Shown here: in pieces, positions 8,912 through 31,566 of the stretch
Numbering within the stretch: position 1 is the stretch's first letter
Layout: each line of letters opens with the position of its first letter
Assembly: GCF_002723975.1 (NCBI RefSeq)
Contig: NZ_BEWO01000003.1
Coordinates: 124,001 to 188,000 of the forward strand
Source: Gluconobacter japonicus
Lineage (GTDB): Bacteria > Pseudomonadota > Alphaproteobacteria > Acetobacterales > Acetobacteraceae
Length of the DNA stretch: 64,000 bases
Direction: 5' to 3'
Notes under the pieces: generated by a model
Told to the model about the DNA's origin: nothing
The model's input: the letters and a program-made list of their open reading frames with translations, nothing else
The model's database searches: none
Position numbers and translations under genes: made by a program

Positions 8912-10162
8912 ATGCCAAAGAGTCCGTTCCTTCTCGAAGCCCAGGCACGCGGCCTGATCTTCCAGTGCACCGACCTCGATGCCCTCGATGCCGCCATGCA
9001 GGCTGGACCGATCACCGCTTATGTGGGCTTCGATCCAACGGCTGACTCCCTGCATGTCGGAAATGCCATGTCCATCATGGCGCTGCGCCTGCTCCAGAAG
9101 CATGGTCATCGCCCGATCGCTCTCATGGGTGGCGGTACGGCCAAGATCGGTGATCCGTCCTTCCGTGACGAGGCCCGTTCTCTCATGACGAACGAGACCA
9201 TCGCGCACAACATCGCCGGGATCGAACAGTCCCTGCGCCAGTTCATCACCTTCAACGATGAAGACCCATCCAGCGGTGCAATTCTCGCGAACAATGCGGA
9301 ATGGCTGGACAAGCTCTCCTACATCAACCTGCTGCAGGATGTTGGGGTTCATTTCTCCATCAGCCGCATGCTGTCTTTCGAGAGCGTGAAGCAGCGTCTG
9401 GACCGTGAGCAGGGCCTGACATTCCTGGAGTTCAACTACTCCATCCTGCAATCCTACGATTTCCGTGAACTGAACCGCCGCCATGGTGCCGTGCTTCAGA
9501 TGGGCGGATCGGACCAGTGGGGCAACATTGTCGCCGGTATCGACCTGACGCGCCGCACGGATGGCAAGCAGGTATTCGGTCTCACCACACCTCTGGTCAC
9601 TACGTCGTCCGGCGTGAAGATGGGCAAATCCGCGCAGGGAGCCACATGGGTCCGGGCCGAGAAGCGCTCCGTCTTCGAATACTGGCAGTTCTGGCGCAAC
9701 ACGGAAGACGCCGATGTCGGCCGTTTCCTCAAGCTCTTCACGGATCTGTCCGTTGAGGAATGTGAGCGTCTGGGTGCGCTTGAAGGCGCAGACATCAACG
9801 AAGCCAAGAAAATCCTCGCTACGGAAGCGACCGCCATCTGCCATGGCCGCATCGCTGCGGAAGAGGCTGCCGAGACGGCGCGCAAGGTCTTCGAACAGGG
9901 CTCCGCAACGGCTGCCCTGCCGGAAGTCGATCTTCCCGCCAATATGCTGGCAGAGGGCCTTCCGGCCTTCCGGGTGTTTCAGGAAGCCGGCTTGGCCGCC
10001 AGCGGTGGCGAGGCCCGTCGTCTGATCCGTGGCGGTGGCGGACGTGTGAATGACGCTGTCATTTCAGACGAAAATCAGGTCTTCACGCTCGATGACCTGC
10101 GTGAAGGCACGCTGAAGGTATCTTCCGGCAAAAAGAAGCATATTCTCATCCGTCCTGTCTGA
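8912..10162 (+). CDS. tyrS: Tyrosine--tRNA ligase
   Basis: A 416-residue class I aminoacyl-tRNA synthetase of the bacterial TyrRS type, which charges tRNA-Tyr with tyrosine in the cytoplasm. Visible landmarks are YVGFDPTADSLHVGN (the HIGH-equivalent signature), the tyrosine-pocket region QMGGSDQWGNI, the KMSKS-equivalent KMGKS, and a C-terminal S4 RNA-binding domain containing EARRLIRGGGGRVND. The ATG at 8912 gives the usual N-terminus; the frame extends a further 7 codons upstream to an ATG at 8891 without support. It appears to be a single housekeeping gene. Confidence 0.97.
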   Translation: MPKSPFLLEAQARGLIFQCTDLDALDAAMQAGPITAYVGFDPTADSLHVGNAMSIMALRLLQKHGHRPIALMGGGTAKIGDPSFRDEARSLMTNETIAHNIAGIEQSLRQFITFNDEDPSSGAILANNAEWLDKLSYINLLQDVGVHFSISRMLSFESVKQRLDREQGLTFLEFNYSILQSYDFRELNRRHGAVLQMGGSDQWGNIVAGIDLTRRTDGKQVFGLTTPLVTTSSGVKMGKSAQGATWVRAEKRSVFEYWQFWRNTEDADVGRFLKLFTDLSVEECERLGALEGADINEAKKILATEATAICHGRIAAEEAAETARKVFEQGSATAALPEVDLPANMLAEGLPAFRVFQEAGLAASGGEARRLIRGGGGRVNDAVISDENQVFTLDDLREGTLKVSSGKKKHILIRPV

Positions 10163-10187
10163 AGCTGACAGATGTCATGAGGAGTTC

Positions 10188-10802
10188 ATGACCACCTTCA
10201 CTGTTCCGGATCATGGCGCATGTCATACTCTTTCTGGAACAATGGAGTCTCTGGTCATGACACGTCAGAAGAACTGGAAAGCCCTTTTCACCGATGCCGC
10301 CGGTCTGGCTTTCGCGGCGATCTGGGCCACGCGCGGCGCCACTGCCGCCCATCTTCCAAAACCCGTCATGGTAGCGTCGCTTGCCGTTATCAGCCTGATG
10401 CTTCTGGCGGGATTTGCCTATCGTGACCTGATCCAGTGCAGACCGGAAGGTGTGCGGGATGCCGCCCTTCTGAGGCGGGTCAAGATCATGCGCATCGTCG
10501 CGATTACGGTCATGATTACGGCTGTCCGCTCTGCCCATCACGCCGAACTGCTCTACCCGCTCCTCGGCTGCATCATTGGCCTGTCCTACATTCCGATGGG
10601 CCGGGCCATGCAGGAGCCGGTCCATATCATCGTAGGCGGTGTGATCGTCGGCATCTCCGCTCTTTCTTTCCTGCTGCCAGAACCGCTACATCTTGAAGTC
10701 GCAGGGTTCGGAACCGCGCTGGCAATCTGGGTCGGGTCTGTCCTGCGCCTGCGCAATTCCGGAACCTTTTCCGTCCCGCCAAGGAACGCTCTGCCCTCAT
10801 GA
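10188..10802 (+). CDS. Membrane protein paired with a DesK/DesR-type two-component system
   Basis: Up to 204 residues with about five or six hydrophobic segments after a short basic N-terminus (MTRQKNWKALF). I do not recognise the family. Its TGA overlaps the ATG of the following histidine kinase (ATGA), so it is almost certainly co-translated with it. That makes a role as accessory sensor or as target of the system plausible, which is inference. The start is uncertain: GAGGAG sits only 3 bases before the ATG at 10188, while GGAG lies about 8 bases before an in-frame ATG at 10257. Confidence 0.7.
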   Translation: MTTFTVPDHGACHTLSGTMESLVMTRQKNWKALFTDAAGLAFAAIWATRGATAAHLPKPVMVASLAVISLMLLAGFAYRDLIQCRPEGVRDAALLRRVKIMRIVAITVMITAVRSAHHAELLYPLLGCIIGLSYIPMGRAMQEPVHIIVGGVIVGISALSFLLPEPLHLEVAGFGTALAIWVGSVLRLRNSGTFSVPPRNALPS

Positions 10803-11923
10803 TGGCACCAGAGACCTTCATTCCTCTTCCCGGCAACAAGGAAGACAACTGGCCGAGATTCAATCGGTATCGGGTCTCTTATCTCGTCTATTTGCTGATT
10901 TATCCCATTCCCTGGCTGATCCACGGATCAGCCACCATTCCGGCCGTCCTGTTCTCTATCGGCGCCCTCGCCGTCTTTCTGCTGCTCTACTTCGCCCCCT
11001 ACAGGGACGACCGCTACTACGGCCTCCCCGAAATTGTTCTGACGGCACTCCTGGGCTTTGCCACGTCCTGGACAGAGGCGGACTGGCTGGTCTTCAACAT
11101 CTATGCCACGGCCATGTGCGCCTGCTTCCAGCGCCCTCGTCAGGCTATCCTGACGATCCTTGGTCTTCAGGCCGCACTTTTCGGGTTTGTCTGGTTACAG
11201 AACAAATCCATGCTTCACGCAGCCTTTGGCGCTTTTTTCAGCATCATCACCTATATCGGCACATGGATGCAGTGGAAGCTTGGCATGCAGAACCTTCAGC
11301 TCCGCAAGGCCCAGCACGAAATCCGCACACTGGCCGCTACAGCCGAGCGCGAACGCATTGCGCGGGATATGCACGACCTTCTGGGACATTCCCTGACTGT
11401 CATTTCCGTCAAGGCCGAGTTGGCCAACCGCCTGTTTGAAACACAGCCCGACCGTGCCAGACGGGAACTTCAGGATATTACGCAGATTGCCCGAACATCT
11501 CTCAAGGATGTTCGGGATGCCGTCACCGGAATGAATGGCGCCTCCCTCCAGCATGAACTCGAGCATGCCCGCAAAGCCCTCGAAGCTGCGTCCATCACCC
11601 TGACCGTCCATCATGACAACCATCTGGCAGACCACCCGCAAAGCAGCGTTCTCGCCATGGCACTGCGTGAAGCCGTGACGAATGTGATCCGCCATTCGGG
11701 CGCCCGACACTGCATCATCAGTTTTGATTGCGATACCGCTGGCCAGCCCTGTGCCATCCGAATTGAAGATGATGGTGCGCAGCAGTCTGGCAGAGCTCCG
11801 TCCCCCCCGCAGGAAGGCAATGGCCTTCGCGGCATGAGAACGCGCCTTGCCGCTGCGGGCGGCTCCCTCATGCTCAACCACACGCCCCGCGGCCTTCGAC
11901 TGACAGCGAGTATCACCCCATGA
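10799..11923 (+). CDS. DesK/NarX-type sensor histidine kinase
   Basis: A 374-residue sensor kinase with about six membrane segments in residues 20-155 and a short coiled linker. The HisKA_3 dimerisation motif is ERIARDMHDLLGHSLTVI, with the phospho-accepting His near residue 197. The ATPase domain shows ALREAVTNVIRHSG (N box) and GNGLRGMRTRLAAAGG (G box). There is no separate periplasmic sensor domain, so the signal is probably sensed in the membrane, as for DesK, where lipid fluidity is the cue. It overlaps both neighbours by 4 bases. The actual stimulus is unknown. Confidence 0.9.
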   Translation: MMAPETFIPLPGNKEDNWPRFNRYRVSYLVYLLIYPIPWLIHGSATIPAVLFSIGALAVFLLLYFAPYRDDRYYGLPEIVLTALLGFATSWTEADWLVFNIYATAMCACFQRPRQAILTILGLQAALFGFVWLQNKSMLHAAFGAFFSIITYIGTWMQWKLGMQNLQLRKAQHEIRTLAATAERERIARDMHDLLGHSLTVISVKAELANRLFETQPDRARRELQDITQIARTSLKDVRDAVTGMNGASLQHELEHARKALEAASITLTVHHDNHLADHPQSSVLAMALREAVTNVIRHSGARHCIISFDCDTAGQPCAIRIEDDGAQQSGRAPSPPQEGNGLRGMRTRLAAAGGSLMLNHTPRGLRLTASITP

Positions 11924-18787: not shown

Positions 18788-19374
18788 GCCCCATCTCTGG
18801 AAGGCGGCGTTTTTGTGAGGACATACACTGGCAGCGCTACAGCCTCCCGAAACAGATACCAGAGTTCCGGGAGGCGAAACTTCGCAGGATACGCGCCAGA
18901 AACGGCTGTCACGCCAGCATGGCGCAACGCCCATTCAGCCCGCATGATATGAAACCACTGCGAAACAACAATTGCGCCATTGGGAGATTCCTCGGCCACA
19001 TGCAACGCTGTCAGCCAGGTATTATTGCCCCGGGAATCAACAATAATATCTGACGCGGGCACGCCATGCGCTTCCAGCCAGTGCGCCATGATTTCAGCTT
19101 CGTCCTGATGGTTTTCAGTCTCGACTGCCCCGCTGACCATCAGTGTCTGCACATGACGGGATTTCCATAGCTCCAACCCGGTCTCAAGCCGATCCCTCAA
19201 AGCCGGTTTTGGCACCCCCTGATCGGTCACAGCCGTTCCGAAAATGACAGCCATCTCGGCAGGGTGCACAGAAGCCCGGACGCCGCCCCACGCGACGACG
19301 GAACACCACCCGACCAGCACAAGACATATCCCGCACAGAACGGCCAGCGCGACTTTACCTGACAAGCGCTTCAC
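18784..19374 (-). CDS. YdcF/SanA-family (DUF218) protein
   Basis: A 196-residue protein with one N-terminal membrane anchor (about residues 8-30) and a periplasmic DUF218 domain. Family motifs are AVIFGTAV, MVSGAVE, IIVDSRGNNTWLTALH and VSQWFHIMRAEWAL. Relatives such as SanA and ElyC affect envelope integrity and peptidoglycan precursor use, but the biochemical role is unclear. Its start overlaps the MFS transporter stop by 4 bases, so the two form an operon; no functional link is known to me. Confidence 0.85.
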   Translation of the reverse strand: MKRLSGKVALAVLCGICLVLVGWCSVVAWGGVRASVHPAEMAVIFGTAVTDQGVPKPALRDRLETGLELWKSRHVQTLMVSGAVETENHQDEAEIMAHWLEAHGVPASDIIVDSRGNNTWLTALHVAEESPNGAIVVSQWFHIMRAEWALRHAGVTAVSGAYPAKFRLPELWYLFREAVALPVYVLTKTPPSRDGA

Positions 19375-20654
19375 GGCTGCGTCTCACCCTGCTGCCGACG
19401 AACATGCATGATATAGAGCAGCGCAACAGCTGCAGCCATAAACCCGGACAGCGCTCCCACGCCCATCGACCATCTCGGCCCAAAATGGTTCGCCACCCAC
19501 CCAACAACAGGCGCGCCGAATGGCGATGCCCCGGCAAAGATGGCAAACCGGATCGCCAGCACACGACCGCGCATTGCAGGCTCACTGGAGAGCTGCATGA
19601 AGCTGTTGCTGGTCGCTGTAAACGTCAGAGACGACATTCCTGTAACAATAAGAGCCAGCGCAAAGATCCAGTAAGTCGGAGCCAGAGCAGCAAACAGACA
19701 GCCCACACCGAAAATCACAGAACCCTTCAGCAGGACATCAAAATCCGCATTCATCCGGCGTGCTGCCAGAAAACCGCCGAGGATTGTTCCGATCGCCATT
19801 GCGGAATTCAGAACACCATAACCATGCGCTCCAACGTGAAAAACACTGACAGCCATTGTTGCAATGAAAATCGGGAAATTCAGCCCGAATGCCCCGATGA
19901 TGAACAGCATCACCAGAATGGTGCGAAGATCTTCCCGCGCCCAGACATAACGTAACCCGCTTGTCAGAGCATTCCGCTCATTCTTCTTTGCGCGTTCAAA
20001 ACGGAACAGCTTGTCCCTGCGAATAAACAGGAGCGAAACCATTACGCCGAAAAATGACAGGCCATTGACCATGAACGACCAGCCGGACCCCACTTCCGCA
20101 ATACAGAACCCCGCAACAGCCGGCCCTACCATTCGCCCTGCATTGTAGGACATGGAGTTGATGCCAACCGCGTTATGGAGGTCTTCTTCGCCGACAAGCT
20201 CTCCAACAAATGTCTGCCGGATCGGACTATCAAACGCCGCAACACACCCGCTGAGAAATGCGAACAAGTCCACCTGCCAGAGTCGGACCGCTCCCGTTAC
20301 AACCAGAAGCCCTAACCCGACGGCGAGCGTTCCCAACGCAGCTTGCGTGAACAAAAGGAATTTATGCTTTTCCACCCGGTCTGCGACGAGACCCGTCCAC
20401 AGGATCAGTAACAGTGGCGGAGCAAGCTGAAGGGCCATGACAATACCGATGGCCATAGCATCATGATTGGTGAGTTCGGTCAGAACCAGCCAGTCCTGAG
20501 TCGTGAGTTGCATCCACGTCCCAATGTTGGAGAACACAGCTCCACAGGCCCAGATACGATAGTTGGGGCGTCCCAGAGACCGGAAAGTACCACCGGTCAC
20601 AGGCGACACTCCAGACTGAAAAAGAGGCAGAGAGACGGACAGACTGGCATTCAC
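19371..20654 (-). CDS. MFS transporter, EntS/MFS_3-like
   Basis: A 427-residue major facilitator protein with about 12 membrane segments. The N-terminal helix carries IWACGAVFSNIGTWMQLTTQ, and loop 2-3 holds the MFS motif GLVADRVEKHK. The layout resembles the MFS_3 branch that includes the enterobactin exporter, so export of a small molecule is more likely than uptake, but no siderophore genes lie nearby. It is the first gene of a two-gene unit with the YdcF-like protein. The substrate cannot be deduced. Confidence 0.88.
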   Translation of the reverse strand: MNASLSVSLPLFQSGVSPVTGGTFRSLGRPNYRIWACGAVFSNIGTWMQLTTQDWLVLTELTNHDAMAIGIVMALQLAPPLLLILWTGLVADRVEKHKFLLFTQAALGTLAVGLGLLVVTGAVRLWQVDLFAFLSGCVAAFDSPIRQTFVGELVGEEDLHNAVGINSMSYNAGRMVGPAVAGFCIAEVGSGWSFMVNGLSFFGVMVSLLFIRRDKLFRFERAKKNERNALTSGLRYVWAREDLRTILVMLFIIGAFGLNFPIFIATMAVSVFHVGAHGYGVLNSAMAIGTILGGFLAARRMNADFDVLLKGSVIFGVGCLFAALAPTYWIFALALIVTGMSSLTFTATSNSFMQLSSEPAMRGRVLAIRFAIFAGASPFGAPVVGWVANHFGPRWSMGVGALSGFMAAAVALLYIMHVRRQQGETQP

Positions 20655-20984
20655 CCACTGTCAGGAATCTTCTGTTGGATGTCGAGGGTTATTCCAGCGA
20701 ATAACGTCTCCAACACGGTTGTAACTCAACAATGATGCGAACTATCCCGATCCTGGAACAAACGTCTGTTTTCTGACAGGCAAAACAATCAACCTTCGAA
20801 TACTCACAATGACGGACAGCCTCGCTATCCACAGTTTTTTGATATGAGGTTTTTTTGTTTTTCTCTAAAATCTGATGCGCGCATTCCACCAAAAACCCCT
20901 CTTCACGCTTTTTCCCGAAGCTTTGATACCCTCTCCAGTACGGAAAATATTGACATTGCCCTGCCTCCCATGAATGGAGTGCTG
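20655..20984. other. Divergent intergenic region upstream of the riboswitch
   Basis: About 330 bases between the start of the MFS gene and the riboswitch. No credible gene is present. A 7-base inverted repeat, GTTATTC and GAATAAC with spacer CAGC, lies at 20688-20705, about 35 bases upstream of the MFS start, and could be an operator. The part around 20830-20875 is T-rich. Promoters for both directions must lie here, but I cannot assign -35/-10 boxes with confidence. Confidence 0.45.
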
Positions 20985-21110
20985 CATCACCTTGGGGTGC
21001 CCTGCCATAAGGGCTGAGAGACTGCTGAGGGTGTGTTCCGTTTCGGGACAGACCGGCGCAGTGACCCATCGAACCTGATCCAGTTCATGCTGGCGGAGGG
21101 ATGGTGGCTC
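20985..21110 (+). ncRNA. TPP (thiamine pyrophosphate) riboswitch
   Basis: The conserved THI-box is present almost base for base. CCTTGGGGTGCCCTG is followed by GGGCTGAGAG. An extended P3 arm then carries an internal hairpin around GTTCCGTTTCGGGAC. Next come GACCC, GAACCTGATCCAG, TGCTGGCGGAGGGA and a closing ATGGTGG that pairs with the 5' CACC. The pyrimidine-sensing and pyrophosphate-sensing halves are both complete. The aptamer lies about 90 bases upstream of the receptor start and should switch the downstream receptor-kinase-permease operon off when TPP is abundant. Confidence 0.94.
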
Positions 21111-21152
21111 CTGACAGATCCATAAACTGGATTTTCGGTGTCTCTCGTCGCC

Positions 21153-21191
21153 CCCACCCTGCACGATGGGATCGCCAGTTTTGCAGGCGGG
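21153..21191 (+). promoter_or_regulatory. Possible expression-platform hairpin masking the receptor ribosome binding site
   Basis: CCTGCA (21158-21163) pairs with TGCAGG (21182-21187), and CCC (21153-21155) can pair with GGG (21189-21191). The 3' arm holds AGGCGGG, the only purine-rich candidate binding site before the ATG at 21203. Its position between aptamer and start suggests translational control, but an alternative anti-sequestering structure was not worked out. Confidence 0.4.
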
Positions 21192-21202
21192 ACACGACAT
21201 TC

Positions 21203-23578
21203 ATGAGCAACCGATTTTCATACAGGCCGCGTCCAGTTCCTGTCGTTCTGCTCGGCCTGACCGTCTGTGCCGGTACGGTGCGCGCGGCTGACACCACAGC
21301 CCTCACCCCACCTGCCTCCAGTGCCCCGAAAACCGAGCACATTACCGTTCACCGCATCTCTGACAGCGCGCCCGGACATCAGCCCGGCGGAGGCCTTATC
21401 CGCCCGGAAAACAGTGTGCGCTCCATCAGTACGGTCAGCCGCGATTACATGGACAAGCAGCCACCGATGGCGACGGCCTATCAGCTCGCCTCCATGCTGC
21501 CCGGCGCCAATGTTGCCACCTCCGATCCGTTCGGCTTTTCGCCCAGCACCAATCTGACCGTGCGCGGCCTGAACAATGATGCCATCGGTTATGTGCTGGA
21601 AGGCACGCCGCTGAACGATGTCGCCTATTATTCCGGCTATCCGAGCCAGTTCGCTGACAGCGAGAATTACAGTCAGGTCGCGCTCGCACAAGGGTCGGCC
21701 GATCTGGACAGTCCGGTGCTGAACGCTGCCGGTGGGCTGATGAGCCTGTCTTTTCTCGATCCGTCACAGAAGGCCGGGGGTTTCGCCAGCGTCTCCTATG
21801 GCTCCTTCGACACCAACCGCGAATTCATTCGCCTTGAAACGGGCAACATCGGCAATTCCGGCATTCGTGGCTTTGTATCCTATTCCCATAGCGCCAGCGA
21901 CAACTGGCGTGGGCCGGGACGGGACAAACGTCAGCATGTCGATTTCAAATTCCTGAAGGACTGGGGGCAAGGCAACCACGCCAGCCTCATTGGCTCCTTC
22001 AACACCACCGTCACCAGTTATTATCCTCAGGTTACGATGGAAAGCTGGAAAGCCGATGGTATCCATGGCGCAAATAATCTTGCTGGCCATTATGACGCGT
22101 CCAACGCAGACAATGCCGTCAATTACTGGCGTCTGTGGCGCGCGCCGGAACGCACTTTCTATGCAGGCGCCCCCGTCCATCTGCACCTGACGCACAAACT
22201 GTCGCTGGACGTCACACCCTACGCACAATTCGCTTATGGCAATGTTCCCGCCGGCTCCACGTTGACGGAAACGGGCCTCTATAACGGCACGCAGCCTCTG
22301 AGTGACACGCTCACGCTGCCCAATGCACAGGATGGAACCGCTGTCGTTCGCGCCAACTACACCCAACGCAGCTATCGGTCTGGCTTCAATTCCACCCTGC
22401 ATTACAAAACCGGCTGGAACGACTTCGTGCTCGGTTACTGGTACGATTACGGAGACGACAACGAGCAACAGCCCTTCACAACCGTTTCTGCGACTGGCGC
22501 TTCAGGTGATATCTGGGCGGAAAACAGCAACAGCCTGATCCATCTTGCGAATGGGCAGAAACTGCTGGGCGGCAGCTTCCACACCATTTCCCAGACCAAC
22601 GCTCTGTATGTGGGCGATCACATCTCGCTCCTGCATGATCGCCTGACCATCGAAGCCGGTTTCAAGGCCGTCATGATGAGCCGGTATGGCACGAACAATG
22701 TTCCCGGCCCTCAGTATCGCGTGGCCTCAAACAGCATGGAGCCTCTGCCGCGTCTTGGCGTCCGCTGGCGCATTGATGAGCAGAACCAGATTTTCTTCAA
22801 CGCCACGACCAATTTCCGCGCCCCGGATCAGACGGCGCTTTACAACACCTACGACCCAACCTCCGGCGCACTCGCCACGACTGGCAGCGCGGATGTCCAC
22901 AACGAATATTCCATTTCAGAAGAACTGGGATATCGCCGCACAGGACAATGGATCATCGGCAGCCTGACGCTGTTCAACTACAACTTTACCAACCGCCAGA
23001 TCTCAACGCTGGCCTCCCAGAACGGCTCCATCATCCAGACGACCATGAACGCCGGAGGCCAGACCTCTCGTGGTGTGGATGTGGAAATCGGTCTCCGTCC
23101 CTGGCACCATTTCAGTCCCTATCTTTCTGGCGAGTATCTACACGCCACCATTGATAACAACATCGCCTCCGGCGGCGACCTTCTGCCGACCAAGGGCAGA
23201 ATCGCCGTTCGCAGCCCGACACTTCAGGCCGCGGCTGGCATCAGCTACGATGACGGGCATATCTTCGGCGTGGCCACCCTGCATTACACCGGCCACCAGT
23301 ATGCAACATTCATGAATGATGAGCGGATGTCAGACCGCACGACGGGCGATATTTCCGTCGGCTATCGCTTCGGCGATGTGTCCCGTCTGCACAAACCAAC
23401 CCTGCGCCTGAACTTCATCAACATCACCAATGAGCGCTCCCTGTCCGGCGTTGCCAGCCCAACCCTGAATGCAAAGGACACGACCGGTATTTACGGCAGC
23501 ACGATCAGTGGGAGCGCCCCGAGTTATTATATCGGCGGCGGTTTCGCAGCGCTGTTCACAGCGTCCACAGGCTTCTGA
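21203..23578 (+). CDS. TonB-dependent receptor, predicted thiamine uptake
   Basis: A 791-residue outer-membrane receptor with a signal peptide (VLLGLTVCAGTVRAAD). The plug domain contains RPENSVRSISTVSRDYMD and LTVRGLNNDAIGYVLEGTPLN, and a long barrel ends in a terminal Phe (ASTGF). It is the first gene after a TPP riboswitch, so the ligand is predicted to be thiamine or a phosphate ester of it; TPP-riboswitch-controlled TonB receptors were predicted earlier from comparative genomics. The ATG at 21203 is chosen since it starts a proper signal peptide; an in-frame ATG at 21101 lies inside the riboswitch. The kinase gene begins 4 bases after its stop. Confidence 0.9.
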   Translation: MSNRFSYRPRPVPVVLLGLTVCAGTVRAADTTALTPPASSAPKTEHITVHRISDSAPGHQPGGGLIRPENSVRSISTVSRDYMDKQPPMATAYQLASMLPGANVATSDPFGFSPSTNLTVRGLNNDAIGYVLEGTPLNDVAYYSGYPSQFADSENYSQVALAQGSADLDSPVLNAAGGLMSLSFLDPSQKAGGFASVSYGSFDTNREFIRLETGNIGNSGIRGFVSYSHSASDNWRGPGRDKRQHVDFKFLKDWGQGNHASLIGSFNTTVTSYYPQVTMESWKADGIHGANNLAGHYDASNADNAVNYWRLWRAPERTFYAGAPVHLHLTHKLSLDVTPYAQFAYGNVPAGSTLTETGLYNGTQPLSDTLTLPNAQDGTAVVRANYTQRSYRSGFNSTLHYKTGWNDFVLGYWYDYGDDNEQQPFTTVSATGASGDIWAENSNSLIHLANGQKLLGGSFHTISQTNALYVGDHISLLHDRLTIEAGFKAVMMSRYGTNNVPGPQYRVASNSMEPLPRLGVRWRIDEQNQIFFNATTNFRAPDQTALYNTYDPTSGALATTGSADVHNEYSISEELGYRRTGQWIIGSLTLFNYNFTNRQISTLASQNGSIIQTTMNAGGQTSRGVDVEIGLRPWHHFSPYLSGEYLHATIDNNIASGGDLLPTKGRIAVRSPTLQAAAGISYDDGHIFGVATLHYTGHQYATFMNDERMSDRTTGDISVGYRFGDVSRLHKPTLRLNFINITNERSLSGVASPTLNAKDTTGIYGSTISGSAPSYYIGGGFAALFTASTGF

Positions 23579-23582
23579 ACTC

Positions 23583-24728
23583 GTGACCGCTCCCGGACAG
23601 TTCGGCGTCAAGGGTGTGCAGGCTGAACGGCACTGGCCCCCTCTAACGCTGGAGGAAGCTGGCCGTGTTCTAGGGCGGTTTGCTCTGGCTTCCGCTCCGG
23701 ATACTCTTTTATGGCACGGCCAGCGCCCCTTCTCCGCAACTGCGCTCGTGAAGCTGGCGGACGGAACCGTGCTGTTCCTCAAGCGGCATGATCCCCGCTT
23801 GCGCGATTACGCCGCCCTCATAGAAGAACACGCGTTCATGGCGCATCTCACTGCGCAGGGTCTGCCGGTACAGGTGCCGGTGAAAGATCGCGCAGGGCGT
23901 TCCGTAACGGAAGAAAATAGGTGGATTTACGAAGTCTTCCGTCCGCTTTCTGGCTTGGACCTGTATCGGGACGTTCAGTCTTGGGAGCCGTTTTTCTGCG
24001 TTGAACAGGCTCGCACTGCTGGACGGGCACTCGCGCGTCTTCATCTCGCTTCAAAGGAATATGAGGCTCCTGCGCGCCCGAATGACCGCCTGCTGCTTTC
24101 AAGTTTTCAGGCCATTACCCAGCCAGACCTTGAGGCAGGTCTTGCACAATGGGGCAAATCTCAACCCGGACTGAACGCACTCTTTCAATCACCGTCATGG
24201 GAACCAGATCTCAAAGTCCTACTCCCATTCCATGACCGTCTCAAACCCCTTCTGCCCGACATCGAACCGCTCTGGGGGCATGGAGACTGGCACCCCTCGA
24301 ACCAGTTCTGGACATCCAGAGATCCCACAGCAGAAATCTGCGGAATTTTCGATTTTGGTATGTCAGACCGGACCTGCGCGGCCTATGATCTTGCCGTCGC
24401 CATCGAGCGCACGGCCATTACGTGGCTTGCTCCAGATTACACAGTGGCATGGGATCAACTGACGGCCCTGCTCGCCGGATATCAGTTCATCCGTCCGCTC
24501 TCACCAACCGAGCGCAAACTGGTCGTCGCGTTTCTCCCCTTGGTGCATGTCGAATTCGCACTTTCGGAAGTCTCGTATTACCGCACCCTCGTGCACGACG
24601 AAGCCTCTGCCACAGGGGCCTATTCGGGCTATCTGCTCGGTCATGCCCATTGGTTTACAGGGTCAGAGGGTCAAGCGCTTCTGAACTGGCTTGAAGCCAC
24701 TCTAGAACAGACCGCTTCATGTCCCTAA
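23583..24728 (+). CDS. APH-fold phosphotransferase, predicted thiamine kinase
   Basis: A 381-residue protein of the aminoglycoside phosphotransferase/choline kinase fold. The N-lobe has LADGTVLFLKRHD with the ATP-binding Lys. The catalytic loop is HGDWHPSN near residue 233 and the metal-binding motif is IFDFGMSDR near residue 262. The family includes kinases for thiamine, choline, ethanolamine and homoserine. Its place between a riboswitch-controlled receptor and a PnuC-type permease argues for thiamine as substrate: phosphorylation inside the cell would trap it. The GTG at 23583 is chosen, 4 bases after the receptor stop; upstream in-frame starts overlap the receptor gene. It overlaps the permease start by 10 bases. 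Confidence 0.82.
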   Translation: MTAPGQFGVKGVQAERHWPPLTLEEAGRVLGRFALASAPDTLLWHGQRPFSATALVKLADGTVLFLKRHDPRLRDYAALIEEHAFMAHLTAQGLPVQVPVKDRAGRSVTEENRWIYEVFRPLSGLDLYRDVQSWEPFFCVEQARTAGRALARLHLASKEYEAPARPNDRLLLSSFQAITQPDLEAGLAQWGKSQPGLNALFQSPSWEPDLKVLLPFHDRLKPLLPDIEPLWGHGDWHPSNQFWTSRDPTAEICGIFDFGMSDRTCAAYDLAVAIERTAITWLAPDYTVAWDQLTALLAGYQFIRPLSPTERKLVVAFLPLVHVEFALSEVSYYRTLVHDEASATGAYSGYLLGHAHWFTGSEGQALLNWLEATLEQTASCP

Positions 24729-25294
24729 CCGAGCTTCTCGCCGCTCTTCTCAGCGCCGCAGGTGTCTGGCTGACAGCAAAGCGCCAGATGGCCTGCTGGC
24801 CAGTCTCACTGGTGGCCGCTCTGCTTTATGGATGGGTGTTCTTCACAGCACGACTTTACGCTGACGCCGCCCTGCAAGTCGTATTCTGCGGCTGCCTGTT
24901 TTACGGCTGGTGGCAGTGGAAAACAGATGGCGCCCAAGGGGATACCGCGCTCCATATCCGCTCGCTTTCTGCCTATACAGCCAGTACGGGTCTGTTGGCG
25001 GGTCTTGTCGGCGGTGGCCTCTGGGCGTTCTGCCTCGCCCGATTTACGGACGATCCCACGCCTCTGGCTGATGCCATGCTGAGCAGTTACAGCATCGTCG
25101 CACAACTCTGGGCAGCCCGACGCCACACCGCAAGCTGGCTGATGTGGATCGTGATCGACACAGCCTATGTGCTACTCTTCCTCACGCGCGGCCTGTATCC
25201 AACGGCCGTGCTGTATGCGGTTTTCATAGGGCTCGCTCTACAGGGCTTCCTGCGCTGGCGAGCCGCTGAACAGACGGATCAACGTCTGGGCTGA
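24719..25294 (+). CDS. pnuT: PnuC/PnuT-family permease, predicted thiamine transporter
   Basis: A 191-residue inner-membrane protein with about seven helices. It has PnuC-family marks: YGWVFFTARLYADAALQ, the FYGWWQW motif and WLMWIVIDTAYV. PnuC takes up nicotinamide riboside, while the PnuT branch takes up thiamine and is typically under TPP-riboswitch control. The riboswitch and the kinase upstream support PnuT, since these facilitators depend on kinase trapping. Its 3' end overlaps the convergent aminotransferase gene by 16 bases. The substrate is inferred from context, not from binding residues. Confidence 0.83.
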   Translation: MSLTELLAALLSAAGVWLTAKRQMACWPVSLVAALLYGWVFFTARLYADAALQVVFCGCLFYGWWQWKTDGAQGDTALHIRSLSAYTASTGLLAGLVGGGLWAFCLARFTDDPTPLADAMLSSYSIVAQLWAARRHTASWLMWIVIDTAYVLLFLTRGLYPTAVLYAVFIGLALQGFLRWRAAEQTDQRLG

Positions 25295-26418
25295 GCCGCA
25301 AACCAGGGCACCATACGGCGCACAGCCTCTTCAATCCGGTCCGTGGAGACCGCAAAACTGAAACGCATGAAACGGTTCCCATTTACCGGGTCAAAATCCA
25401 CGCCCGGCGCAGTCGCAACGCCTGTTTCCAGCAACAGCCGACGGCAAAAAGCAAGACTGTCATCCGTGAGGTAGCTGATATCCGCGTAGATATAAAACGC
25501 ACCATCAGGCGGCGCGATATGCGTTAGCCCCATCTCTGGCATGGCCTCGAGCAACAGATCACGGTTACGACGATAGGTGTCGAGATGCCTTTCCAACTCA
25601 TCCACGCAATCAAATGCCACAAGTCCGGCATGTTGGCTCAGGGCAGACGGGGTCAGGAACAGATTGCCCATCCGCGCGCGGGCTGCATCAATCCGATCCG
25701 TAGGAACCACCAGCCACCCGAGACGCCACGGCGCCATGCTGAAATATTTGGAGAAGCTGTTCACCACCATGGCAGACGGCTCGTACTCCAGAACCGAATG
25801 AGCCGGATCACCATAGCTCAGGCCGTGATAGATCTCGTCTGACACCACGCGGATACCACGATCGCGGCAGACCTTTAGAATAGCCTTGAGTTCTTCATCC
25901 CCAAGAATAGTGCCCGTCGGATTAGCCGGACTGGCAATAATGAGACCGTCTGGCACGGGTTCAATCGCAGCGACTGCATCTGCCGTAAGCTGGAAACGCT
26001 CAGCCTCTCCGCACTCAATTTCGATCGCCTCCATGTGAAGCGCCCGAAGCGTATTGCGGTACGCCACATACCCTGGACGGGCGAGCGCCACCCTCTGTCC
26101 CGGGACAAAGCTGCTCGTCAGTGCCAGAACCAGAGCGGGTGAAGCACCGCATGTCAGGATGACCTGATCCGCCTGAACCGTCGCCCCGTACATGTCCTGA
26201 TAGTGGCGCGCGATCCGTTCCTTCAGAGGCTGGCTTTCCCAGTAGCCCATTGGGTCAGTCGCGAGGATATGCTGTGCCCGCTCGATGGCTTTCTGTGGCG
26301 CCCCTGTCGAAGGCTGGCCGAATTCCATGTGAATGATGCTGCGCCCTTCGGCGGCCAGTTTGTGCGCCAGGCTGCTGATGGCAATGGCATGAAACTGGTC
26401 AATGTCAGGAACGGTCAT
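25279..26418 (-). CDS. Class I/II pyridoxal-phosphate aminotransferase
   Basis: A 379-residue fold-type I aminotransferase resembling the aspartate/aromatic class. Landmarks are IIHMEFGQPSTGAP at the N-terminus, YWESQPLKERIARHY, the substrate-loop IIASPANPTGTI, VVSDEIYHGLSY with the cofactor-binding Asp and Tyr, and the Schiff-base Lys in SFSKYFSMAPWRLGW. The conserved late Arg lies in RFSFAV. The ATG at 26418 is preferred because the longer frame adds about 77 Cys-rich, non-homologous-looking residues. The amino donor and pathway are not deducible, and it seems to stand alone. Confidence 0.88.
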   Translation of the reverse strand: MTVPDIDQFHAIAISSLAHKLAAEGRSIIHMEFGQPSTGAPQKAIERAQHILATDPMGYWESQPLKERIARHYQDMYGATVQADQVILTCGASPALVLALTSSFVPGQRVALARPGYVAYRNTLRALHMEAIEIECGEAERFQLTADAVAAIEPVPDGLIIASPANPTGTILGDEELKAILKVCRDRGIRVVSDEIYHGLSYGDPAHSVLEYEPSAMVVNSFSKYFSMAPWRLGWLVVPTDRIDAARARMGNLFLTPSALSQHAGLVAFDCVDELERHLDTYRRNRDLLLEAMPEMGLTHIAPPDGAFYIYADISYLTDDSLAFCRRLLLETGVATAPGVDFDPVNGNRFMRFSFAVSTDRIEEAVRRMVPWFAAQPRR

Positions 26419-26516
26419 CGGAAGCTCAAGAAAAACGCCAGCTTTGCCAGCAGGAAACAGGGAAAATGCATGATGGCCTGAACACTGCACACAGGCAAAC
26501 CCACTACAAACACAAA

Positions 26517-26551
26517 CGGCGGGAAACAGGCTGCACGCCCATTTCCCGCCG
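26517..26551 (-). terminator. Terminator of the RND efflux operon
   Basis: CGGCGGGAAA and TTTCCCGCCG form a perfect 10-base stem with a 15-base loop. Read on the minus strand it is followed by TTTGTGTTTGT. It lies 34 bases past the stop of the small exported protein, the last gene of the efflux operon. Confidence 0.75.
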
Positions 26552-26584
26552 CGGATCAAATCCGAATGAACGAATAGTCCAGCC

Positions 26585-26926
26585 TCAGTTGGAGGCTGTA
26601 TCGTCTTCCGGCAGAGGCTGAACATGCGTGACCTTGCCGTAGCGATCATAATAGATCACCGCATTGCCACGACGTTCCGCATACCCATCCGGCTGACCAT
26701 CACGGGTACGGAAAAGCAGACGGAACGCATCCGGCTGCTCAATGACCTTGTCCCCCGGTGGCCGGTACGTGAAACGGCTGAAATCGGCGTGACTCCGGGG
26801 AAGAGAGGAGTTGCGATACAACTCGTGCATGTCCGGCTTCTTCGGGCCATCTCCATCCGCATCCTGCGCGACAGCGGTGCCCGTCAGGGCGAGAACTGCC
26901 AGTGTGGAAGTCAGGATCCTGCGCAT
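26585..26926 (-). CDS. Small exported protein, RND operon
   Basis: A 113-residue protein with a clear signal peptide (MRRILTSTLAVLALTGTAVA, cut before QDADG). The mature part of about 90 residues is hydrophilic and has no Cys and no membrane segment; a C-terminal piece VIYYDRYGKVTHVQPLP is the most structured-looking part. I do not recognise the family. GGAGAG sits about 6 bases before its start, and the gene begins 12 bases after the outer-membrane efflux gene, ahead of the shared terminator. It is therefore probably a periplasmic accessory of unknown role. Confidence 0.72.
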   Translation of the reverse strand: MRRILTSTLAVLALTGTAVAQDADGDGPKKPDMHELYRNSSLPRSHADFSRFTYRPPGDKVIEQPDAFRLLFRTRDGQPDGYAERRGNAVIYYDRYGKVTHVQPLPEDDTASN

Positions 26927-26938
26927 GATGCTCTCCGG

Positions 26939-28393
26939 TCAGTACGTTGCGGCGGGCACTGTAGGCGAAACCGTCTTCTGGCTCCACCCACCACCGAGCG
27001 CACGATACAATGTGACAAGATTCTGGAATCGTGCCCCCTGAACCAGAATAGCGTTCTGCTGGGCTTGATACAGGCTCCGCTGCTGTTCCAGCGTTGTCAG
27101 GTAACTATCAATGCCAGCATCGTACCGCATCTTCGCCAGGTCATAAGCTTTCTGGGACTGTTCCACGAGAGACTGCATGTGACGATCCTGCGTCGTATAA
27201 GTCTCGCGCGCCGTCAGCGCATCCGAAACTTCGCGGAACGCCGTCTGCATCGTCTTCTCATACTGGGCAATATACTGAAGCTTACGCGCCTTGGAGATAT
27301 GCAGATTTCCTTCATTCTGCCCCCAGGTGAAGATTGGCAGCGTGATGGACGGAGAAACCGTCCAGGTCTGCGCGCCCGGTGTAAACAGTTTGCGGAATTC
27401 CAGAGAACTGGTGCCCTCTGATGCTGTCAGAGTGACTTTCGGGAAGAACGCCGCTCTTGCCGCCCCAATATTCGCGTTTGCACCTTCAAGCGTATGCTCT
27501 GCCGCCAGAACATCCGGACGCTGCAACAAAAGATCAGACGGCAGACCCGCTGGCAGGTCGGCAATCATGGTCTGATGACCCAGCGGTGCAGGCTCGGGCA
27601 AAGTTGCGGGCAACGGTACACCGACCAGAAGCTGCAGCGCATGTTCATCATCTGCAACAGCCCGGGTATACTGCGCCTCGTTGGCGGAAGCCTGCTCAAC
27701 CTGCGTCTTGACCTGAGCCAGTGTCAGCGCGTCCGTTTCGCCATTGTCATAGGAAAGCTGTGTAAGACGCAACGTATTGCTCTGGGATTTCAGCGTATCC
27801 CGCGTCACACGCAGTTGCTCACGATCGGCCAACCACTGGATGTAGGTTTCCGCAAGCTGCGAAACAGTCGTGATCAGGACGTTTCGTGAATTTTCCATGC
27901 TATTCAGCACGGTTTCAGACTGCTGCCGCGACAGGTTGCGGATACGGCCCCAGAGATCAATCTCGTAGGATGAAAACCCGATGGAGGTCTGATACAGCCG
28001 AAGTGTTGACACGTTCGTTCCAAGGCCTGGAGCAAACGAGAAACCCGCCGTGTCGGATGGAGCCAGGAACATACCCTGCCCTGTCACCCCAATCGGCGGG
28101 AACAGGGAAGCATGCTGAACTTCATACTGTCCGCGGGCTTCAGCAATCGTGGCCGCCTGTACGGCCAGATCACGATTGTTCTTCAAAGCCAGCTGGATCA
28201 GCGCCTTCAGGCGCGGGTCCGTGAAGAAATCCTCCCAGCCCAGATTTCCGGCCTTCTGCAAGGCCGGGACGTTCTGCGCCCCGGTATCAGCAGGAAAGCT
28301 GTTCTGCACAGGCTGAGCCGGCCGATGATAAGTCGGAGCAAGATTACAGGCTGACAGCATCAGCAGCGCGGCAAATCCAAGACGGGCCTTCAT
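26939..28393 (-). CDS. OprM/NodT-family outer-membrane efflux lipoprotein
   Basis: A 484-residue TolC-fold channel protein, the outer-membrane part of a tripartite efflux pump. The signal ends in a lipobox (LMLSAC), followed by NLAPTYHRPAQP, the usual start of NodT-family proteins. Two TolC repeats are visible, with LGWEDFFTDPRLKALIQLAL early and LLLQRPDVLAAEHTLEGANANIGAARAAFFP in the middle. Its start overlaps the stop of the inner-membrane pump gene by 4 bases. Confidence 0.95.
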   Translation of the reverse strand: MKARLGFAALLMLSACNLAPTYHRPAQPVQNSFPADTGAQNVPALQKAGNLGWEDFFTDPRLKALIQLALKNNRDLAVQAATIAEARGQYEVQHASLFPPIGVTGQGMFLAPSDTAGFSFAPGLGTNVSTLRLYQTSIGFSSYEIDLWGRIRNLSRQQSETVLNSMENSRNVLITTVSQLAETYIQWLADREQLRVTRDTLKSQSNTLRLTQLSYDNGETDALTLAQVKTQVEQASANEAQYTRAVADDEHALQLLVGVPLPATLPEPAPLGHQTMIADLPAGLPSDLLLQRPDVLAAEHTLEGANANIGAARAAFFPKVTLTASEGTSSLEFRKLFTPGAQTWTVSPSITLPIFTWGQNEGNLHISKARKLQYIAQYEKTMQTAFREVSDALTARETYTTQDRHMQSLVEQSQKAYDLAKMRYDAGIDSYLTTLEQQRSLYQAQQNAILVQGARFQNLVTLYRALGGGWSQKTVSPTVPAATY

Positions 28394-31300
28394 GCGCCGT
28401 GCTCCCCTTCAACAGCCGGTTGGGACTGTTCATTCAGATGATCATACGGGTCCTTCCGGTCCTTGATGCGGGTCACCCGGAAGAGACGCAGAACAACGAC
28501 GAAGAACACAGGCACAAAATAGATCGCCAGCAACGTCGCAGACAGCATACCGCCCACCACGCAGGTTCCGATCGCCACACGGGCAGCAGAGCCGGCACCC
28601 GTCGCAATTGCCAGCGGGAACACACCACATACGAAGGCAATGGAGGTCATCAGGATCGGACGCAGACGTTCCTTGCCCGCTTCCAGAACGGACTCTTCAA
28701 GGGATTGTCCCTGCTCAAAGAAGGCTTTGGCGAACTCCACGATCAGGATCGCATTCTTCACCGAAAGACCAACCGTCGTGAGCAGGCCCACCTGGAAGTA
28801 AACGTCGTTGGAGAGACCACGCCCCAGCGTTGCAGCAATTGCCCCCAACACACCGAGTGGCAGCACAAGCAGCACCGCAAACGGAATGGCCCAGCTTTCA
28901 TAGAGCGCTGCAAGACAGAACAGAATGACGATCGCAGCCAATGCATAGAGAGGCCCGGTCGCACCACTGGAAGCAAGCTGCTCGTAGGATAGACCCGTCC
29001 ACTCATACCCAATGCCACGTGGCAGCTTGGCAAGGATCTTTTCCATTTCCGCCATGGCCTGCCCGGAACTGGACCCCACAGCCGGCTGCCCCTGGATTTC
29101 GTAGGAGTTCATGCCGTTATAGTCTTCGACCTTCTGCGGCCCACTCTCCCACGTTCCGGATGCAAACGCATTGAACGGAACCATCGTGCCTGTCGCATTG
29201 CGGACATACCAGCGGTTCAGATCTTCAGGCGTCATACGGGCCCAGGGTTCACCCTGAATGTAAACCTGCTTCACACGATCATCCCGCATGAACTGGTTGA
29301 CGTAAATTGACCCCAGAGCGCCTTCCAGCGTCGTGTTGATGTCCGCATTGGTCAGACCAAGGGCATTCGCACGCTCACGGTTGATGTCCAGCTTGAACTG
29401 CGGGGCATCTTCCATACCCAGCGGACGCACAGCCTGAAGAAGCGGATTCTTGGCCGCTGCCATCAGAACCTGATTACGCGCCGCCAGCAGCGCCGCATGA
29501 CCCAGATGTCCCGTGTCTTCCAGTTCCAGATCAAAACCCGTCGCGTTACCCAGTTCCATCACGGCAGGCGGGTTCACAGCAAAGATCTGTGCATCCGGAT
29601 CCATCCAGAAATGCATCATGATCTCACGGGACACCGTCATCGTCGTATGGGCAGAACCCGGACGCTGATCCCATGGCTTCATACGAATGAAGAACGCACC
29701 CGCAGACTGTCCCTGCCCGGCAAAACTGAAGCCGTTCATGGCAAAGACGGACTGCACGTAGTCGCCATAATGCTTGAGAACGTAGTCTGTGATCTTCTGG
29801 TTGACAGCAGCGGTCTGGGCCTGTGTGGCGTTGTTCCGCATGGTCACCTGGCCGAAGATGATGCCCTGATCCTCATCTGGGAGGAACCCACCCGGAACGC
29901 GCAGGAACAGGAACACCACACCCGCCGTCAGCAGCACAAAAATGAGCATGCTGACCACCGGAACCCGGATCAGCCATTTTACGCCGCCCAGATATCCATT
30001 GGTCAAACGATCAAACGTGCGGTTGAACCAGGCAATGGGGCCCTTCTCATGGCCCGTATGCGTCGGCTTGAGCATGGAACCGCACAGGGCAGGCGTCATG
30101 ACCATGGCCACGAGAACGGACAGCCACATGGCGGCAACAATGGTGATGGAGAACTGGCGGTAAATTACGCCCGTCGATCCGCCAAAAGCAGCCATCGGGA
30201 GGAACACCGCGGTCAGAACCAGCACGATACCGATCAGCGCGCCAGAAATTTCGTCCATGGATTGACGGGCGGCTTCCTTGGGAGAAAGCCCCTGATCCGT
30301 CATCACACGTTCGACGTTTTCAACCACGACAATGGCATCGTCCACCAGCAGACCAACAGCCAGAACCATGGCCAGCATGGTCAGAGTGTTGATGCTGTAT
30401 CCCAGCACAGACAGCAGCCCGAACGTCCCAAGAAGAACAACCGGAACGGCAATCGTTGGGATCAGCGTTGCACGGAAGTTCTGTAGGAAGATCAGCATCA
30501 CGAAGAACACGAGCACAATGGCTTCCACCAACGTCTCGATTACTTCCTTGATGGACAACGTAATGAACGGCTCGGTATCCAGCGGATAAACCAGCTTCAG
30601 CCCACCCGGGAAGTACCGCTGCAAATCGGCCATTTTGGCGCGCACTGCGGCTTCCGTGTTAAGCTGGTTGGCACCCGGAGCAAGCTTCAGAGCCATGGCG
30701 GCAGCCGGATGTCCGTTATAAACAGACCCCAGCGCATAACTCTGTGCCCCCAGTTCAACACGCGCCACATCTTTCAGGCGGACCTGGCTGCCATCCTGCT
30801 GAACCTTGAGCAGGATCTTTTCGAACTCTTCCGGAGAACTCAGGCGCGTCGGCCCGATCACCGTCGCATCAAATCCAATTCCCTTCTTGGCGGGCAAACC
30901 ACCAAGTTCACCAGACGAAACCTGAATGTTCTGTGCCTGAATGGCAGACTGAACGTCTCCCACCGTCAGGCCGTAATTATAAAGCTTGGACGGGTCGAGC
31001 CAGATACGCATGGCATATTCGGAACCGAACAGCGTGTGATCACCCACACCCGAAACGCGCGACAGCGGATCAGAAATATTGGAGGCCACGTAGTCCGAAA
31101 TATCCTGCCCGGACATGCTGCCGTCTTCGGAAATAAAGGCCAGAACCATCATGAAGTTCTTGGTGGCCTTCGTGACACTCAGCCCCTGAGCAGTCACTTC
31201 CGACGGCAGACGCGGCTGTGCCAACTGTAGCTTGTTCTGAACCTGGACCTGAGCAATGTCCGGATTGGTTCCCTGTTCAAAGGTCAGGTCGATTTCCATC

Positions 31301-31566
31301 TGCCCACTCGCATAAGACGAGGCGGACAGATATTCGAGATGATCCAAACCATACATCTGCTGCAAAATCGGGCGCACAACCGTGTTGTTCACCGTCTCGG
31401 CAGATGCGCCGGGATACATGACGGAAATAGCGATCTGTGGCGGCGCGATGCTCGGATACTGAGCAATCGGCATACGGGTGATGGCAACGCCACCCACCAG
31501 CATGATGATCAGCCCGATGACCCAGGCAAAGATCGGCCGATCAATGAAAAAGCGTGAAAGCGTCAT
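28390..31566 (-). CDS. RND multidrug efflux pump, HAE1 (AcrB-type)
   Basis: A 1058-residue proton-driven transporter of the hydrophobe/amphiphile efflux family, normal in length. It opens with MTLSRFFIDRPIFAWVIGL. The proton relay lies in TM4 (AVGLLVDDAIVVVENVER with the paired Asp), and the repeated second half has VGLLTTVGLSVKNAILIVEFAK. Porter-domain motifs such as PSEVTAQGLSVTKA are present. It pumps toxic organic compounds from the inner membrane and periplasm to the channel. It is encoded between the adaptor (6 bases upstream) and the channel protein. Natural substrates are unknown. Confidence 0.96.
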   Translation of the reverse strand: MTLSRFFIDRPIFAWVIGLIIMLVGGVAITRMPIAQYPSIAPPQIAISVMYPGASAETVNNTVVRPILQQMYGLDHLEYLSASSYASGQMEIDLTFEQGTNPDIAQVQVQNKLQLAQPRLPSEVTAQGLSVTKATKNFMMVLAFISEDGSMSGQDISDYVASNISDPLSRVSGVGDHTLFGSEYAMRIWLDPSKLYNYGLTVGDVQSAIQAQNIQVSSGELGGLPAKKGIGFDATVIGPTRLSSPEEFEKILLKVQQDGSQVRLKDVARVELGAQSYALGSVYNGHPAAAMALKLAPGANQLNTEAAVRAKMADLQRYFPGGLKLVYPLDTEPFITLSIKEVIETLVEAIVLVFFVMLIFLQNFRATLIPTIAVPVVLLGTFGLLSVLGYSINTLTMLAMVLAVGLLVDDAIVVVENVERVMTDQGLSPKEAARQSMDEISGALIGIVLVLTAVFLPMAAFGGSTGVIYRQFSITIVAAMWLSVLVAMVMTPALCGSMLKPTHTGHEKGPIAWFNRTFDRLTNGYLGGVKWLIRVPVVSMLIFVLLTAGVVFLFLRVPGGFLPDEDQGIIFGQVTMRNNATQAQTAAVNQKITDYVLKHYGDYVQSVFAMNGFSFAGQGQSAGAFFIRMKPWDQRPGSAHTTMTVSREIMMHFWMDPDAQIFAVNPPAVMELGNATGFDLELEDTGHLGHAALLAARNQVLMAAAKNPLLQAVRPLGMEDAPQFKLDINRERANALGLTNADINTTLEGALGSIYVNQFMRDDRVKQVYIQGEPWARMTPEDLNRWYVRNATGTMVPFNAFASGTWESGPQKVEDYNGMNSYEIQGQPAVGSSSGQAMAEMEKILAKLPRGIGYEWTGLSYEQLASSGATGPLYALAAIVILFCLAALYESWAIPFAVLLVLPLGVLGAIAATLGRGLSNDVYFQVGLLTTVGLSVKNAILIVEFAKAFFEQGQSLEESVLEAGKERLRPILMTSIAFVCGVFPLAIATGAGSAARVAIGTCVVGGMLSATLLAIYFVPVFFVVVLRLFRVTRIKDRKDPYDHLNEQSQPAVEGEHGA

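Follow-up and report, generated by a model that had tools for sequence, protein, structure and literature searches.

A TPP riboswitch-headed operon with a predicted APH-fold thiamine kinase in Gluconobacter japonicus and related loci in other Proteobacteria

Thiamine salvage in gut Bacteroidetes is described as a system of a TonB-dependent receptor under thiamine pyrophosphate (TPP) control, the permease PnuT and the enzyme Tnr3 (PMC5613172). Within the genus Gluconobacter, the RNA-seq report on G. oxydans 621H lists the thiC leader as the only TPP leader and suggests termination at this site (PMC5756330). We analyzed a 64,000-nucleotide stretch of the Gluconobacter japonicus genome (hereafter the window; assembly GCF_002723975.1, contig NZ_BEWO01000003.1, positions 124,001 to 188,000), in which a TPP aptamer is followed on the forward strand by genes for a TonB-dependent receptor, an APH-fold kinase and a PnuC/PnuT-family permease. 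With a probability of about 0.8, these genes form a TPP-repressed thiamine salvage operon, in which the receptor takes up thiamine, a PnuT-type permease imports it and a predicted thiamine kinase traps it. The sequence-only reading of this DNA had predicted the same three roles, and thiamine salvage stands as the best interpretation of the aptamer, the co-occurrence of the genes and the gap in the thiamine pathway.

In the proposed mechanism, a low TPP level would leave the aptamer empty and allow expression of the operon, perhaps via ribosome access. The receptor would then draw on the proton-motive force to bring thiamine through the outer membrane, TonB energy coupling being inferred from receptor homology. 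PnuT transport is facilitated diffusion, and the permease, judging by its family, would pass thiamine over the inner membrane in this way. The kinase would convert it to thiamine monophosphate (TMP), so that the gradient stays directed inward, and the ThiL protein of the genome would add the second phosphate, yielding TPP and closing the loop on the riboswitch. To our knowledge, organisms that possess ThiL and lack thiamine pyrophosphokinase (TPK) need a thiamine kinase for imported thiamine, and outside the ThiK-bearing enterics this enzyme is usually unassigned.

Operon structure and leader region

Scanning of the window with cmscan located an RF00059 aptamer at positions 20983..21118 of the forward strand (65.9 bits with a gathering score of 54.3, E 1.1e-10), which covers model positions 1-105 of 105, has an enlarged P3 arm and is the sole Rfam match at gathering score within the 64 kb. 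Under a purpose-built model derived from 10 aptamers, the same element, itself one of the source sequences, scores 84.5 bits. The first gene downstream (21203..23578, ATG start) encodes a 791-aa TonB-dependent outer membrane receptor, the proposed thiamine receptor, with a PF07715 plug (35.7 bits) and a PF00593 barrel (90.7 bits), both over the curated Pfam cut-offs. Its N terminus looks signal-peptide-like by eye, a longer frame from 21101 would begin inside the aptamer, and the protein is 98% identical to that of Gluconobacter frateurii. Four bases after the receptor stop begins the gene of the 381-aa APH-fold kinase (23583..24728, GTG start), the proposed enzyme converting thiamine to TMP. 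It overlaps by 10 bases the gene of the 191-aa PnuC/PnuT-family inner membrane permease (24719..25294), the proposed thiamine facilitator, which scores 160 bits with PF04973 (cut-off 27.3) and carries two tryptophans, W140 and W143, that are invariant among 21 aligned permeases. We propose that this protein is a thiamine-specific PnuT on the basis of the TPP aptamer and the thiamine pathway gap. The full-length RF00059 match, the gene spacing (+4 and -10 bases) and the Pfam domains above their cut-offs confirm the earlier observation that a TPP aptamer stands ahead of three tightly packed genes.

The interval between the aptamer and the receptor start (21119..21202) is a putative expression platform. 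A hairpin predicted in it pairs a GC-rich stretch 5' of the receptor ATG, with a weak signal for the fold of positions 21101-21225 (z -1.64). The stretch 5' of the ATG is largely kept in four close Gluconobacter loci and a similar hairpin also folds in two loci, L067 and L069 (L and G numbers denote loci and genomes), and the leaders of other Gluconobacter differ. No terminator-like site was found between the aptamer and the receptor. Because of this, and of the weakly supported hairpin over the region before the ATG, we lean towards translational control by the riboswitch, as a guess.

Distribution of the operon and of its riboswitch

Using the kinase as query (E<=1e-20), we identified it in 30 genomes of a 200-genome sample of Acetobacteraceae, and 29 genomes of the same sample have a PF04973 match above its cut-off (31 at E<=0.001). 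Both proteins are encoded in 26 genomes, whereas the kinase occurs alone in four (G001, G049, G080, G128) and the permease alone in three (G029, G048, G116); the Fisher p of this co-occurrence, ignoring kinship, is 3e-25. The receptor-kinase-permease order seen in the window proved to be widespread: of the 30 kinase genomes, 24 have it (22 fetched loci together with G000 and with G180, whose operon is split over two contigs). The kinase and permease genes of G037 and G117 have no receptor of the window type beside them.

The four genomes with the kinase alone, in which PF04973 has no match, possess ATP-binding cassette (ABC) importer genes next to the kinase. An ABC permease (BPD_transp_1) adjoins the kinase in G049, G080 and G128, and an ABC ATPase does so in G128 and G001, the latter with a membrane-protein-like frame, judged by eye, between the ATPase and the kinase. 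A receptor behind a TPP aptamer is located 3' of the kinase in G049 and G080 and on another contig in G128 and G001 (the G001 receptor was recognized by eye). The aptamer scores are below the Rfam gathering score in G049 (51.1 bits), G080 (43 bits) and G128 (50.5 bits) and above it in G001 (67.7 bits). In addition, NMT1/THI5-like proteins are encoded 3' of the receptor in G049, G080 and G128.

Beyond this sample, one species-level scan confirmed 433 relatives among 588 pattern matches, of which the best 80 were kept and grouped by record titles: 19 Gluconobacter; 6 Bombella, Parasaccharibacter, Saccharibacter or uncultured Acetobacteraceae; 17 Acetobacter, Acidomonas or Brytella; 2 Zymomonas; 35 Burkholderiaceae; and 1 Pseudomonas. 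All 80 loci have a PnuT homologue near the kinase. Among the 44 loci outside Burkholderiaceae and Pseudomonas, 42 preserve the receptor-kinase-permease order (the exceptions are L087 and L132), and the kinase-permease distance is from -10 to +31 bases in 39, with start codons assigned mechanically. In contrast, a different TonB-dependent receptor, identified with the receptor of the Paraburkholderia eburnea locus (L090) as query, and a PnuT gene precede the kinase on the same strand in all 35 Burkholderiaceae loci; in BLASTP, the L090 receptor shows no significant similarity to that of the window. The arrangement is more than chance, since Acetobacteraceae and Zymomonas have the neighbours found in the window and Burkholderiaceae combine the kinase and PnuT with another receptor. 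The kinase stays with uptake genes when the type of receptor or permease changes.

Several of these loci include additional genes. An NMT1/THI5-like protein is encoded between the receptor and PnuT in P. eburnea, and full matches to this protein were found at that place in 6 of the 35 Burkholderiaceae loci and short matches in 2. The short ones (L105 and L108, positions 4943-5104 in each, ~55 bits) also lie between the receptor and PnuT and are perhaps remnants. The set in Pseudomonas turukhanskensis (L142) comprises a THI5-like protein, the kinase, a rhodanese, a receptor, an acid phosphatase and PnuT. The phosphatase, of the haloacid dehalogenase class IIIB, is encoded between the receptor and PnuT (10088-11113) and could dephosphorylate thiamine phosphates in the periplasm ahead of PnuT. 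A rhodanese gene is located 3' of the kinase in 6 of the 35 Burkholderiaceae loci (L090, L091, L092, L102, L103, L106) as well as in L142; a tie to the sulfur supply for thiazole would be a guess.

The riboswitch has a narrower distribution. Within the family sample, a receptor preceded by a TPP aptamer is present in 13 of the 30 kinase genomes, nine with PnuT and four without; the G030 locus (L038) begins 106 bases 5' of the receptor match and so offers no upstream region to search. By the purpose-built model, an aptamer is located ahead of the operon in 18 of the 19 named Gluconobacter loci and in all 6 loci of the Bombella, Parasaccharibacter, Saccharibacter and uncultured group. One of the salvage-operon aptamers belongs to G. 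oxydans NBRC 14819 (L075, 3284-3413, 68.8 bits). Outside the operon, a second strong TPP aptamer was observed ~1.2 kb 5' of the ThiG match and apart from thiC in two genomes (G046:C1:837991-838119 and G126:C1:749902-750030).

Kinase identity, pathway gaps and competing explanations

The kinase scores 83.9 bits with PF01636 (APH; cut-off 23.2) and possesses the catalytic lysine K67, E82 and the motifs HGDWHPSN (233-240) and DFG (257-259); K67, E82, D235, N240 and D257 are invariant among 29 aligned kinases. Of the 80 named relatives, all carry an HxDxHxxN-type motif and 77 contain [FIVL][DN]F[GSA], and the closest named kinase, from G. frateurii, is 88% identical. The AlphaFold model (mean predicted local distance difference test score 91.3) has the APH fold. 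Its fold neighbours are N-acetylhexosamine kinase (Z 26.6), the homoserine kinase ThrB (2ppq, Z 26.1), AmiN (Z 24.4), aminopropanol kinase (Z 22.9) and LicA (Z 20.6), and because several APH-fold families lie at such near scores, the substrate is unreadable from the structure. The choline kinase family PF01633 is not among the Pfam matches of the kinase at E<=1, although choline kinases such as LicA share the fold. PF04263, the catalytic domain of TPK and Tnr3, is not matched either.

A comparison with ThiK gave no match of the kinase to the NCBIfam models TIGR02721 and PRK10271 at E<=1, whereas E. coli ThiK scores 338.1 and 554.5 bits on them. BLASTP against E. coli ThiK found nothing (E 0.57) and a profile comparison gave a probability of 0.2%, so no relation of the kinase to ThiK is visible at the sequence level. 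It would thus do the job of ThiK without being detectably its homologue beyond the common APH fold. In a tree built from 41 operon kinases with 4 outgroups, the operon kinases are set apart (Shimodaira-Hasegawa-like approximate likelihood-ratio support 94), and the homoserine, methylthioribose (MTR), SrkA and ThiK kinases are separated from them. The outgroup branches are very long (5.8-10 changes per column), and for this reason the tree is silent on the nearest outside relative.

Thiamine pathway genes were analyzed in 40 genomes, namely the 30 with the kinase and 10 of the 170 without it, and in 43 genomes for ThiK and PF02581. All 40 genomes have ThiL above its cut-off, TPK (PF04263) was found in none of the 40 (controls were positive in 7 of 14), and ThiK (TIGR02721) is over its cut-off in none of the 43. 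A ThiB-type protein (TIGR01254, E<=0.001) is absent from all 30 kinase genomes and present in 7 of the 40 overall. Seven of the 30 genomes with the kinase (G001, G032, G049, G070, G080, G128, G136) lack ThiC, as do 2 of the 10 others, and the same seven except G001 also lack a strong ThiG (>250 bits). PF02581 (ThiE/TenI) scores at least 121 bits in 26 of the 30 kinase genomes, with lower values in G080 (63.4), G070 (34.6), G032 (32.1) and G136 (26, or 30.7 with neighbours). On that reading of the scores, G032, G070 and G136 would lack hydroxymethylpyrimidine (HMP) synthesis, thiazole synthesis and coupling of the two halves. These three genomes are 99-100% complete (G128 is only 85% complete) and keep ThiL as well as the receptor-kinase-PnuT operon behind a TPP aptamer. 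The reading frames of both receptor and kinase are intact in G032 and G070, and in G136 that of the kinase is. Because ThiC, strong ThiG and strong PF02581 are absent while ThiL is kept, a kinase making TMP from thiamine would be the simplest missing link.

The host of the window differs from these genomes. Its assembly (3,156,896 bases in 75 contigs, 99.99% completeness) encodes ThiC, ThiG, a PF02581 protein (158.6 bits) and ThiL; the ThiC gene lies behind another TPP aptamer, a weak one whose 39.4 bits fall short of the gathering score. Therefore thiamine auxotrophy of the host was rejected. To the question of missing de novo genes, raised with the sequence-only reading, the answer is that they are present in this genome and missing in some of the relatives. 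Since de novo synthesis seems complete within the range of genes searched, the operon would serve salvage here.

Several observations weigh against the thiamine salvage interpretation, and the first of them concern the riboswitch and the integrity of the genes. At E<=1 with the purpose-built model, no operon aptamer is present in the 17 Acetobacter-type, 35 Burkholderiaceae, 2 Zymomonas and 1 Pseudomonas (P. turukhanskensis) loci or in Gluconobacter wancherniae (L081), the exception among the named Gluconobacter; Rfam at gathering score likewise gave none in 10 tried loci of the Acetobacter-type, Burkholderiaceae, Zymomonas and P. turukhanskensis classes. The idea that every such operon carries the riboswitch was therefore rejected. 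The aptamer is also missing at the operon in G054, G131 and G180, the three sampled genomes assigned to the genus of the window. Their loci (L056, L055 and L062, respectively) encode receptors that are 67-69% identical to that of the window and kinases that are merely 37-39% identical, and the G131 kinase clusters with other lineages in the kinase tree. The difference in identity, together with the missing aptamer, suggests gene replacement in these genomes, perhaps of the kinase-permease part; as the 80 named loci were chosen by kinase likeness, replacement cases would escape that set. Frames are broken in G136 (L041; receptor in three frames) and in G126 (L063; receptor and kinase in several pieces), and these operons may be decaying. 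A second, apparently broken kinase-permease copy was observed in G169 (L059). The broken copies in all three genomes may reflect decay or an assembly error.

The absences in the pathway are also open to another count. TIGR02721 is a narrow model, over its cut-off in 1 of 14 controls, and weak partial ThiK matches occur in 11 of the 43 genomes, that of G000 falling in its MTR kinase (MTRK) gene. Raw tallies over the Pfam cut-offs are high, with ThiG in 38 of 40 genomes (cut-off 23 bits) and PF02581 in 43 of 43 (27 bits), because weak partial matches pass these low cut-offs, and the absences given above are thus an interpretation of scores. We discounted the weak matches since several genomes with a strong match have an additional weak one as well, as G000 does (25.1 bits). 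Conversion of thiamine to TMP and then to TPP would be the sole route seen in G032, G070 and G136, in a search that left aside the kinases of HMP and hydroxyethylthiazole (HET).

Among the other explanations, precursor salvage fares best and still appears unlikely. Here the kinase would act on HMP, HET or a breakdown product such as aminopyrimidine, and ThiE would join the halves. A TPP aptamer suits any substrate of the thiamine pathway, and a ThiE-family protein is kept in the window genome, G049 and G128. NMT1/THI5-like proteins are known for pyrimidine precursors, and those linked to the receptor or kinase in some relatives fit such a substrate as well. However, the usual partner of the kinase is a PnuT-family permease, and in G032, G070 and G136, which keep the operon and ThiL, the precursors could hardly be joined, since ThiC and strong ThiG are missing and PF02581 remains under 35 bits.

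A homoserine-kinase-like or antibiotic-kinase-like enzyme, present by chance in a thiamine uptake operon, is very improbable. The best NCBIfam match of the kinase is PRK05231, which 23 of the 23 members of one kinase alignment match at E<=0.001, and ThrB is among its nearest folds; a profile comparison with ThrB of the same genome gives a probability of 96.8%, which also counts against our interpretation. Nevertheless, the kinase is far under the homoserine kinase cut-offs (57.5 of 271 bits for PRK05231 and 41 of 255.9 for TIGR00938), and it stays with uptake genes as the receptor or permease type varies. The other two APH proteins of the genome, encoded elsewhere, are clearly assigned as ThrB (380 bits) and as MTRK (355 bits), and the kinase was accordingly rejected as the homoserine or MTR kinase of the genome. 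A firm placement with the homoserine kinases, which would have spoken against the sequence-only reading, was thus not obtained, although ThrB is still the nearest named family by profile. Salvage of nicotinamide adenine dinucleotide, in which the permease would be PnuC, transporting nicotinamide riboside, and the kinase a nucleoside kinase, is scarcely credible on the evidence from thiamine genes and aptamers: NCBIfam does label the permease PnuC (TIGR01528, 89.8 bits, cut-off 42.45), a further point against thiamine, and a profile of 21 permeases matches the PnuC structure 4qtn (E 1.5e-19), the only solved relative found, but the TPP aptamer here, the aptamer-headed receptors in 13 of 30 kinase genomes and the thiamine pathway gap that the kinase fills all speak otherwise.

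Returning to thiamine salvage, the operon kinases probably form a separate thiamine kinase family, closer to homoserine kinase than to ThiK, with which it cannot be aligned. It would be the standard trap in hundreds of ThiL-type, TPK-less proteobacteria. The family appears portable, being combined with two dissimilar receptors and two importer types (PnuT and ABC).

As for the surroundings of the operon, the flanking long frames at 19371-20654 (major facilitator superfamily-type) and 25279-26649 (aminotransferase), with types judged by eye, are on the opposite strand. Two long minus-strand frames further on (26939-31566) resemble by eye an outer-membrane factor and a resistance-nodulation-division transporter of an efflux system. 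PADLOC gave no match, and a promoter scan found 2 sites with 1.6 expected.

Comparison with known systems

If the proposed function is true, the candidate family, linked to importers and partly also to TPP riboswitches, would supply the unassigned thiamine kinase of acetic acid bacteria, Zymomonas and Burkholderiaceae. In that case the labels 'nicotinamide riboside transporter' and 'homoserine kinase-like' would need correction, and one could predict which small-genome acetic acid bacteria rely on outside thiamine (G032 is nearest to Bombella/Parasaccharibacter). Among the literature matches listed, with subscription papers mostly outside scope, no paper describes an operon of this kind with a thiamine kinase of the APH fold other than ThiK, or such a kinase with PnuT in Acetobacteraceae.

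By profile, no named APH family is closer to the window kinase than the homoserine kinase ThrB_alt (TIGR00938/PRK05231), which also ranks among the nearest folds, but the window kinase is below both of its cut-offs and the genome has its own ThrB. In G. oxydans 621H, a member of the same genus, a TPP leader has RNA-seq support, yet it is the thiC leader only (PMC5756330). Variovorax possesses a TPP-regulated operon with a permease and a TonB receptor, but these are within a biosynthetic operon, and the term 'thiamine kinase' is absent from the text of that paper (PMC10409787). In E. coli, which uses ThiBPQ, ThiK and ThiL, thiamine is likewise converted to TMP by an APH-fold kinase, as predicted here, and then processed by ThiL; however, ThiK is unalignable with the window kinase, and the E. 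coli importer is of the ABC type, as opposed to a TonB receptor and PnuT (PMC4112796). Moreover, the ThiK gene of E. coli K-12 is located between lpoB and nagZ and not with an importer. The closest counterpart is the OMthi-PnuT-Tnr3 system of Bacteroides, which also combines a TPP riboswitch, a TonB-dependent receptor, PnuT and a trapping enzyme, with riboswitch, receptor and PnuT in one operon in most of the gut Bacteroidetes genomes of that study, but in which the trap is Tnr3 and not an APH-fold kinase acting with ThiL in genomes devoid of TPK-family proteins (0 of 40) (PMC5613172). Thus, the architecture is known, and what is new is the different kinase at the trapping step.

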